Shown here in pieces: positions 5,255 through 7,525 of a stretch of 10,710 nucleotides of DNA (positions are counted from its first letter, which is position 1; each line of letters opens with the position of its first letter). Made by a program: the position numbers and the translations under genes. The notes beneath the pieces are model-generated. The model worked only from the letters and a program-made list of their open reading frames with translations, made no database searches and was not told the origin of the DNA. The DNA comes from Pseudomonadota bacterium (lineage in GTDB: Bacteria; Pseudomonadota; Gammaproteobacteria; Steroidobacterales; Steroidobacteraceae), in NCBI GenBank assembly GCA_021850555.1, contig JAJZLX010000625.1:1-10710 (forward strand), written 5' to 3'.

Positions 5255-7237
5255 TCAGGCGTGGACCAGGAACCAGCCGAGCAGCGCCGCCAGGCCGATC
5301 ACGATCCAGAACGCGTACGAGTACAGGTAGCCGCTCTGCGCGCGCCGCACCACGCCGCCGAACCAGCCCACCGAATTGGCCGTTCCATTGACCATGGCAC
5401 CGTCGATCAGCCCCTGGTCGCCGGCTTTCCACAATCCCAAGCCGATGCCGCGGGCGAGCTTCGCGACGACATGCTCGTTGAACCAGTCGAAGTAGTATTT
5501 CTCGATGAGCAGCTTGTGCAGCCAGCCGAACTTCTGCGCGGCGGCATCGGCAAGCTGCGGGCGCTTCAGGAAGAACAGCCACGCGGTGAAGAACCCGGCG
5601 AGCGCAAACCAGAACGGCGCGCCGAGAAAGCCGTGCAGTGCCAGCGAAAACGGCCCGTGATACTCCGCGGCCATGCGCGCGAGCACGTTGTGCTGCGGCA
5701 GCACGAAGATGGCCTTGCCGAAATAATCGCCGTAGAGGACTTTGCCGACCGTGAGGTAGCCGATCACGAGAGAGGGGATGGCAAGGGCGATCAGCGGCAA
5801 AGTGACCACCAGCGGGCTCTCGTGCGGCTCGTGTACGCCGTGGTCGTCGTGCGCCTGGTCGTGTCCGTGGCCGTGCTCCGCCTGCACGCGGCGGAAGCGC
5901 TCCTCACCGTGGAAAGTCATGAACAGCAGCCGGAAGGTGTAGAGCGAGGTGATGAAGGAGCCGAGCAGCACGCACCAGTAGGCGTAGGTCGCGCCCCAGC
6001 GGTGCGACAGGCCGACCGCCTCGATGATGGCGTCCTTGGAGTAAAAGCCGGAAAAGAACGGCGTTGCGACCAGCGCCAGCCCGCCGATCCAGCAGGTGAT
6101 GGCGGTGACGGGCATGTACTTGGCGAGTCCGCCCATCTTGCGCATGTCCTGCTCGTGGTGCATGCCGATGATGACCGAGCCCGCGGCGAGGAACAGCAGC
6201 GCCTTGAAGAAGGCGTGCGTCATCAGGTGGAAGATTCCGGCGCTGTAGGCCGAAACGCCGAGCGCCGCGGTCATGTAACCGAGCTGCGAGAGCGTCGAAT
6301 AGGCGATCACCCGCTTGATGTCGTTCATGATGACGCCGAGCACGCCCATGAAGAACGCGGTGGTCGCACCGATCACCAGCACGAAGGACAGTGCCGTGTC
6401 CGAATACTCGAACAGCGGTGACATGCGCGCCACCATGAAGATTCCCGCGGTCACCATGGTGGCCGCGTGGATCAGCGCGGAGATCGGCGTCGGGCCCTCC
6501 ATCGAGTCGGGCAGCCACACGTGCAGCGGCACCTGCGCGGACTTGCCCATCGCGCCGATGAACAGCGCGATACAGATCAGCGTCATCGCATTGACGCCGC
6601 CGAACACCGGCAGGGTCTGCTGCGCAATGTGCGGCGCGGCCGCGAACGCCGCCTCGTAGGAGAGCGAGTGCGTGTAGGAGAACACGGCCGCGATGCCGAT
6701 CACGAAGCCGAAATCGCCCACGCGATTGACGAGGAAGGCCTTGAAATTGGCGAAAATGGCGCTCGGGCGCGTATACCAGAAGCCGATCAGCAGGTACGAC
6801 ACCACGCCGACGGCCTCCCAGCCGAAGAACAGCTGCATGAAGTTGTTCGACATCACGAGCATGAGCATCGAGAAGGTGAACAACGAGATGTAGCTGAAGA
6901 AGCGCTTGTATCCAGGGTCATCGCGCATGTAGCCGATCGTGTACACGTGCACGCACAGCGACACAAACGTGACCACCGACATCATCAGGGCGGTGAGCCG
7001 ATCGATCAGGAAGCCGACGTGGATATGCACGCCGTCACTGACCAGCCACGTATAGACCGGACCGTTGAAGGTCGCGGCGCCACCCCAATAGAGCTGCCTG
7101 AGGACATAGAGCGACAGGACGCAGGAGGCCGCAACGCCCGCGATGGTGACGGTGTGGGCGCCTGCGCGGCCGATGAGACGCCCGGCGAGCCCGGCGATCA
7201 CGGCCGCCGCGAGCGGAGCTAAGGGGATGGCGATCAG
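5255..7237 (-). other. nuoL: NuoL portion of the fused frame
   Basis: Residues 97-756 (660 residues, normal NuoL size) are NuoL, the distal antiporter-like subunit of complex I. Pump residues match E. coli at a near-constant offset: Glu237 (E144), Lys328 (K229), His353 (H254), His433 and His437 (H334, H338), Lys441 (K342), and Lys497-Asp498 (K399-D400). A His-rich hydrophilic loop (HGHGHDQAHDDHGVHEPH, 551-568) follows, then the C-terminal segment with the long lateral helix and final anchor (IEKYYFDWFNEHV at 674-686, then YSYAFWIVIGLAALLGWFL at 735-753). Only the extreme N-terminus with the initiator methionine is lacking. The stop is 31 bases before nuoM. Confidence 0.93.
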
Positions 7238-7525
7238 CAGATCTTCGACGTTGATGCTGCGCCGCTCGCGGAACAGCACCACCAGGATGGCGAGCCCGAT
7301 GGCCGACTCCGCCGCCGCCACGGTGAGCACGAAGAACACGAACACCTGGCCCGTGAGGTCGCCCAGCATGCGCGAGAACGCGATGAAGTTGAAATTGGCC
7401 GAGAGCAGCAGCAGCTCGACGCACATCAGCAGCAGGATGACGTTCTTGCGGTTCAGGAAGATGCCGGCGACGGCCAGCGCGAACAGCACCCCCGAGAGCG
7501 TCAGCATGTCGGCGAGCGTGATCAT
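5255..7525 (-). CDS. Fused NADH-quinone oxidoreductase subunits K and L in one open frame
   Basis: A single 756-residue frame begins with a nearly complete NuoK and continues without stop or start codon into an essentially complete NuoL. The ATG at 7525 overlaps the nuoJ stop as ATGA, with GGAG 8 bases upstream. At the join the NuoK tail RRSINVEDL (residues 88-96) is followed directly by LIAIPLAPLAAAVIAGL, the first helix of NuoL. NuoK normally has a few more residues and a stop, and NuoL normally begins with its own methionine and a residue or two. Those are gone, as if about 20-35 bases had been deleted. No good internal start or ribosome site for NuoL is seen. In known complex I, NuoK and NuoL are separated by NuoN and NuoM, so a covalent join is unexpected. 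It may be real, or an assembly or sequencing deletion. I know of no standard fusion of this pair. Confidence 0.85.
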   Translation of the reverse strand: MITLADMLTLSGVLFALAVAGIFLNRKNVILLLMCVELLLLSANFNFIAFSRMLGDLTGQVFVFFVLTVAAAESAIGLAILVVLFRERRSINVEDLLIAIPLAPLAAAVIAGLAGRLIGRAGAHTVTIAGVAASCVLSLYVLRQLYWGGAATFNGPVYTWLVSDGVHIHVGFLIDRLTALMMSVVTFVSLCVHVYTIGYMRDDPGYKRFFSYISLFTFSMLMLVMSNNFMQLFFGWEAVGVVSYLLIGFWYTRPSAIFANFKAFLVNRVGDFGFVIGIAAVFSYTHSLSYEAAFAAAPHIAQQTLPVFGGVNAMTLICIALFIGAMGKSAQVPLHVWLPDSMEGPTPISALIHAATMVTAGIFMVARMSPLFEYSDTALSFVLVIGATTAFFMGVLGVIMNDIKRVIAYSTLSQLGYMTAALGVSAYSAGIFHLMTHAFFKALLFLAAGSVIIGMHHEQDMRKMGGLAKYMPVTAITCWIGGLALVATPFFSGFYSKDAIIEAVGLSHRWGATYAYWCVLLGSFITSLYTFRLLFMTFHGEERFRRVQAEHGHGHDQAHDDHGVHEPHESPLVVTLPLIALAIPSLVIGYLTVGKVLYGDYFGKAIFVLPQHNVLARMAAEYHGPFSLALHGFLGAPFWFALAGFFTAWLFFLKRPQLADAAAQKFGWLHKLLIEKYYFDWFNEHVVAKLARGIGLGLWKAGDQGLIDGAMVNGTANSVGWFGGVVRRAQSGYLYSYAFWIVIGLAALLGWFLVHA
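7238..7525 (-). other. nuoK: NuoK portion of the fused frame
   Basis: Residues 1-96 of the fused frame are NuoK, the small three-helix membrane subunit that passes protons between NuoJ and NuoN; standalone NuoK is normally about 100-102 residues. The two buried glutamates essential in E. coli (Glu36, Glu72) are present as Glu37 in LLMCVELLL and Glu73 in VAAAESAIGL. The cytoplasmic loop NRKN (25-28) and the basic tail FRERRS (85-90) fit N-outside, C-inside topology. The portion ends at the conserved INVEDL, so only the variable last 4-6 residues and the stop codon are missing. Confidence 0.9.

Follow-up and report, generated by a model that had tools for sequence, protein, structure and literature searches.

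A probable, very recent 40-nt loss joins the nuoK and nuoL reading frames in a Steroidobacteraceae contig

The window, by which we mean the whole stretch of 10,710 nt analysed here, carries complex I genes on its minus strand in the order 3' part of nuoG, nuoH, nuoI, nuoJ, nuoK, nuoL, nuoM and nuoN. The genes nuoI and nuoJ were assigned by their reading frames, while Pfam was also used for the others. A chemotaxis-type signalling protein (Pfam MCPsignal) is encoded directly downstream of nuoN on the minus strand at 634-2067. A plus-strand frame of 166 aa at 64-564 has no Pfam match and shows a 1-nt difference near its end from G027, the closest genome found. The features used below are the following.

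2267-3697, minus strand: nuoN, intact (Pfam, codon comparison)
3709-5223, minus strand: nuoM, intact (Pfam, codon comparison)
5255-7525, minus strand: joined nuoK-nuoL reading frame, 756 aa (translation, Pfam)
5255-7237, minus strand: NuoL part, without its first five residues, which are MNPHL in G027 (translation, comparison with G027)
7238-7525, minus strand: NuoK part, residues 1-96, where the NuoK of relatives normally has 101 aa (translation, relatives)
7238-7242, minus strand: remaining copy of the ATCTG repeat; 40 nt of G027 and of a second close relative, G035, are absent between 7238 and 7237
7415-7418, strand not assigned: codon of the conserved NuoK glutamate E37, an approximate position computed from residue 37 and given for orientation only
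7522-8175, minus strand: nuoJ, intact, with an uncertain start codon and a stop that overlaps the nuoK ATG (codon comparison)
8629-9708, minus strand: nuoH, intact (Pfam, codon comparison)

Translation confirmed the starting observation of the first-pass annotation, that a single uninterrupted frame opens with the NuoK ATG (7525) and closes with the NuoL stop (5255): on the minus strand it encodes 756 aa with zero internal stops. In the translation of 5255-7525, NuoK reaches RERRSINVEDL and is followed directly by helix 1 of NuoL, LIAIPLAPLAAAV. Pfam places Oxidored_q2 (the NuoK family) at residues 7-96, Proton_antipo_N at 160-210 and Proton_antipo_M at 226-511 of this single chain. The NuoK glutamates E37 and E73, which we take to be functional residues, are both kept in alignment columns that are invariant. 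By eye, the NuoL motifs GWEAVG and GKSAQ, presumably meaningful ones, are kept as well. The annotation had stated that both halves retain every expected functional residue; this holds for the two glutamates and the two motifs and fails at the borders, where the joined protein lacks the NuoK tail (of the NTLKG type) and MNPHL, the start of NuoL.

The nature of the join became apparent from the two closest relatives. Over 5,040 aligned columns the window is 95.7% identical to G027, and over 5,043 columns it is 91.9% identical to G035, with a single gap in each alignment; both gaps are 40 nt long and both lie at the nuoK-nuoL junction. The lost 40 nt comprise the last five codons and the stop of nuoK, a 7-nt spacer and codons 1-5 of nuoL. 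In the relative, GAAGG precedes the nuoL ATG and is, by eye, a candidate ribosome site. In the closest relative the two genes are in different frames (stop, 7 nt, ATG), and it is because the loss is 40 nt long that they now share one. Gene order and flanking genes are as in the window in G027 (locus L101), in G035 (locus L102) and in L001-L004, relatives whose nuoK and nuoL are separate and which differ from the window in retaining the 40 nt that hold stop, spacer and start. A normal nuoK stop followed by a nuoL start, which the annotation had named as the observation that would speak against its reading, is therefore present in the closest relatives' assemblies. The missing piece, for which an insertion of 20-35 bases had been expected, measures 40 nt against both of them.

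Across the whole window, which is 94.6% identical to G027, the junction gap is the sole indel inside the nuo genes, and a search of the contig's nuo genes for further frame errors against G027 found none. The other indels relative to G027 are intergenic or lie inside the plus-strand frame 64-564 (3 nt and 1 nt); against G035 there are additional small compensating differences in nuoG. Substitutions in the two halves were counted by branch, with G035 as outgroup and five ambiguous codons excluded. The window branch carries 34 synonymous and 8 nonsynonymous changes and the G027 branch 26 and 10 (Fisher p = 0.42). Judged from these codon counts, the NuoK and NuoL halves appear to have been under normal constraint until very recently, or to be so still, which suggests a very recent event or one introduced by sequencing. 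A working fusion would be expected to leave the two halves under normal constraint as well. Together with the open frame and the lack of any other nuo indel against G027, this constraint supports the earlier judgement that the locus is not undergoing general decay.

A direct repeat of 5 bp, ATCTG, flanks the lost stretch, and one copy of it is left. This border repeat is longer than expected by chance: among simulated 40-nt deletions in the relative's DNA, 50 of 11,301 (0.44%) had a repeat of at least 5 bp, and for deletions of 20-60 nt the proportion was 1.1%. In the relative, eight repeat pairs of at least 5 bp link the nuoK and nuoL ends, three of which would join the genes in frame. The ATCTG copies at the borders point to slipped mispairing, whether cellular or in vitro, and slippage is the deletion mechanism that we infer. 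The shortness of the repeat (5 bp) and the lack of a supporting hairpin count against this account. Slippage driven by a hairpin was considered separately and rejected, as the fold is no better than that of shuffled sequences (z +1.5 and +1.6).

Based on these comparisons, we are fairly sure that the join is a private 40-nt deletion bounded by repeats, very recent, whether carried by the strain or introduced in the data, rather than an evolved fusion. Slipped mispairing between the two ATCTG copies would delete the 40 nt, taking away the stop codon of nuoK together with the start codon of nuoL and its likely ribosome site, and a deletion of this length would put nuoK and nuoL in one frame. The deletion would have arisen either in the strain's DNA or during amplification or sequencing, two origins to which we give about the same weight.

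Within this reading, a purely technical origin has in our estimate a little less than an even chance. The contig would then have taken up a minority read or a polymerase slip made while the library or the whole genome was amplified, and the organism would be normal. Such an origin is consistent with the normal nuoK and nuoL of the relatives and with the absence of the joined protein among the 120 matches listed for its own search; moreover, a 5-bp repeat falls below 8 bp, the repeat cut-off for true deletions that one study derived, as given in a passage of PMC3411829. Nevertheless, the nuo genes hold zero other coding indels against G027, and random ligation or joining of fragments would have no preference for ends 40 nt apart. 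An overlap of 5 bp is too short for an assembler to make a join unaided, so a read spanning the junction must exist.

The fusion was sought among relatives in several ways. A set of loci was taken from genome contigs for the best 80 of at least 580 relatives. Both genes are present in 79 of the 80 (L005 is without nuoK), and none of these 79 is fused, NuoK having 101 aa in every one. The same was found for the loci from a family search, four of which belong to genomes already among the first 79: 0 of 20 are fused and NuoK has 101 aa in all 20. One locus, L021, is labelled as a 'Klebsiella pneumoniae' MAG; its nuo region is just 61% identical to the query and it is probably misnamed. Among the closest NuoK proteins (the best 120 of 8,000 scored), all 120 end in glycine, with tails such as NTLKG. 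For NuoL, 118 of the 120 relatives listed begin with MN, and since all 120 are 660-712 residues long, no listed relative has the joined length.

A family-wide search covered 217 genomes, 214 of them with a match, and the rows counted were those that begin at query residue 1-4 and span the junction; genomes with nuoK and nuoL in different frames yield no such rows. A stop was present in 47 of 47 junction-spanning rows among the matches listed, and in 25 of 25 among those listed for the 151 genomes of another order. None of 396 genomes of the order contains the junction pattern, the junction is in no viral contig, and among plasmids 16 records matched at 60-80% identity, none of which covers 80% of the query. 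A fusion shared by the lineage is ruled out by the two sets of loci, the stops in the 47 listed family rows and the result for the 396 genomes. A spare normal nuo operon was also considered; it finds no support, because there is a single strong nuoK-nuoL place per genome in G001-G005, G027 and G035, where extra NuoL-like frames are more distant (about 26-34% identity).

The topology of the two subunits bears directly on whether the joined chain could work. NuoK is described as N-out with three helices (PMC9099147), which puts its C-terminus inside, on the cytoplasmic side. In NuoL, 14 conserved helices (PMC10212512) precede a lateral helix that lies on the cytoplasmic face (PMC3046159), and by counting, the NuoL N-terminus is therefore outside, on the periplasmic side. 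In the joined chain, NuoK helix 3 and NuoL helix 1 are separated by 11 residues, with no helix to reverse direction, and there are arginines on either side of NuoL helix 1. As predicted from these published features and the sequence, the junction would be incompatible with the membrane topology. Within the complex, NuoK forms part of the E-channel close to the hydrophilic arm, and NuoL is distal (PMC10212512, PMC9271201). A single chain could in all likelihood not keep the native topology while placing NuoK next to NuoJ and NuoN and NuoL at the tip, and a cell with the deletion allele would for this reason make little or no normal complex I. The first-pass annotation had raised an objection based on these same positions; the objection was sound, and the topology clash sharpens it. 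The consequences of losing NuoL are possibly milder than assumed, because an active NuoL-less E. coli complex has been reported; this is one report, cited as not reproducible in a passage of PMC8357420. According to PMC3274701, 3-14% of the quinone reductase activity remained in E. coli when NuoL was absent or truncated.

A structure model of the joined protein, built with 50 sequences, has a mean pLDDT of 71, with most of the NuoL part good. The NuoK part is weak, with block means at pLDDT 39-56, but we give these values no weight. The best fold matches of the model are NuoL/ND5 chains.

Separate translation, with NuoL restarting inside the joined frame at a CTG or GTG codon, would avoid a single chain, and we judge it extremely unlikely. 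The restart options are CTG codons 96 and 97 or GTG 109 inside helix 1. A GAAG stands just upstream of the two CTG codons, and a start there would yield NuoL with nearly all of helix 1. However, CTG is a weak start codon, the first ATG, GTG or TTG is GTG 109, halfway through helix 1, and NuoK would still be without a stop of its own.

The protein database was searched with the NuoK half against proteins of the joined protein's length class. There were 29 matches, 14 of which contain both NuoK and NuoL. The search for comparable fusions that the annotation had proposed has come out two ways, with none in the relatives examined and 14 K-L (NuoK-NuoL) joins in the database. Like the window's joined frame, each of these 14 is a predicted protein with domains of both NuoK and NuoL. 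Twelve of the 14 are represented by one sequence each, P0132 by nine and P0144 by six. Frameshifted stretches were seen by eye in eight (P0122, P0124, P0126, P0132, P0133, P0137, P0141 and P0143), and four (P0130, P0136, P0139 and P0144) come solely from a source without contigs, presumably a protein-level read assembly. In P0130, P0136 and P0144, NuoK is joined to a NuoL without helix 1 (without more in P0136), an arrangement that would fit the topology better. P0146, under the name 'Metschnikowia pulcherrima' (a yeast), resembles a bacterial K-L join in which many leucine positions are occupied by serine, and is probably misnamed. Among the NuoK proteins scored, P0151 and P0231, on contigs of about 600 bases, are 156 and 148 aa long, with the first half of NuoK repeated.

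The cleanest database join is P0125, an independent case of 754 aa on a 91.6-kb contig, in which a clean stop loss joins the two genes. It keeps the full NuoK tail and the NuoL start, whereas the window has lost both. That such joins occur in the database, with this clean one among them, weighs against our preferred reading. No genome carrying P0125 was found among the matches listed for the 151 genomes of the order of G443. Since the database joins are mostly single, frameshifted or contig-less, and the rows from the order contain a stop, K-L joins are rare cases, none of them seen as a clade.

These joins also bear on the possibility of a working NuoK-NuoL fusion, in which the single chain assembles, for example with NuoL helix 1 outside the membrane. 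The open frame with both Pfam domains kept and the normal constraint on the halves would suit such a protein, and P0130 and P0144 offer joins to a NuoL without helix 1 that would fit the topology. These two are from the contig-less source, however; no clade carries a K-L join in the genomes examined, and a NuoK end inside would have to meet a NuoL start outside across 11 residues with no helix between. We consider a working fusion very unlikely. That it would form part of a working complex I, with NuoL helix 1 outside the membrane or with two complexes sharing chains, is in our view very unlikely indeed. If a working chain did exist, the membrane arm of complex I would have to be laid out in a new way, and a shared or helix-1-out chain would tie the distal pump subunit to the E-channel subunit.

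Nothing found suggests that evolution has kept the join as a working fused protein, which we regard as unlikely. The biological fusion of the first-pass annotation, calling for a different arrangement, cleavage or separate translation, gives way to a 40-nt repeat-bounded loss that is absent from the relatives examined. On the preferred reading of a recent deletion, the window illustrates how two genes can become one open frame through a small deletion bounded by repeats. It also calls for caution, as an open frame with intact motifs is not necessarily an evolved protein.

No K-L fusion was recognised in the literature covered, from which subscription journals are largely absent. The fused complex I subunits named in PMC12361115 are NuoCD and NuoBCD. 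Like the window's joined frame, they combine at least two Nuo subunits in one chain; unlike it, they are described in that source as widespread in clades, in 1,374 species, and belong to the hydrophilic arm. MrpA of the Mrp antiporters similarly has a NuoL-like and a NuoJ-like part in one chain, but the join described in PMC7419157 is at the C-terminal side of the NuoL-like part and not from NuoK to the NuoL N-terminus. A parallel in the way of formation is offered by the deletion-born gene fusions described in PMC12803068, where, as in the window, a deletion joins two reading frames; those fusions are reported to spread with an adaptive deletion, whereas the window join shows no spread.
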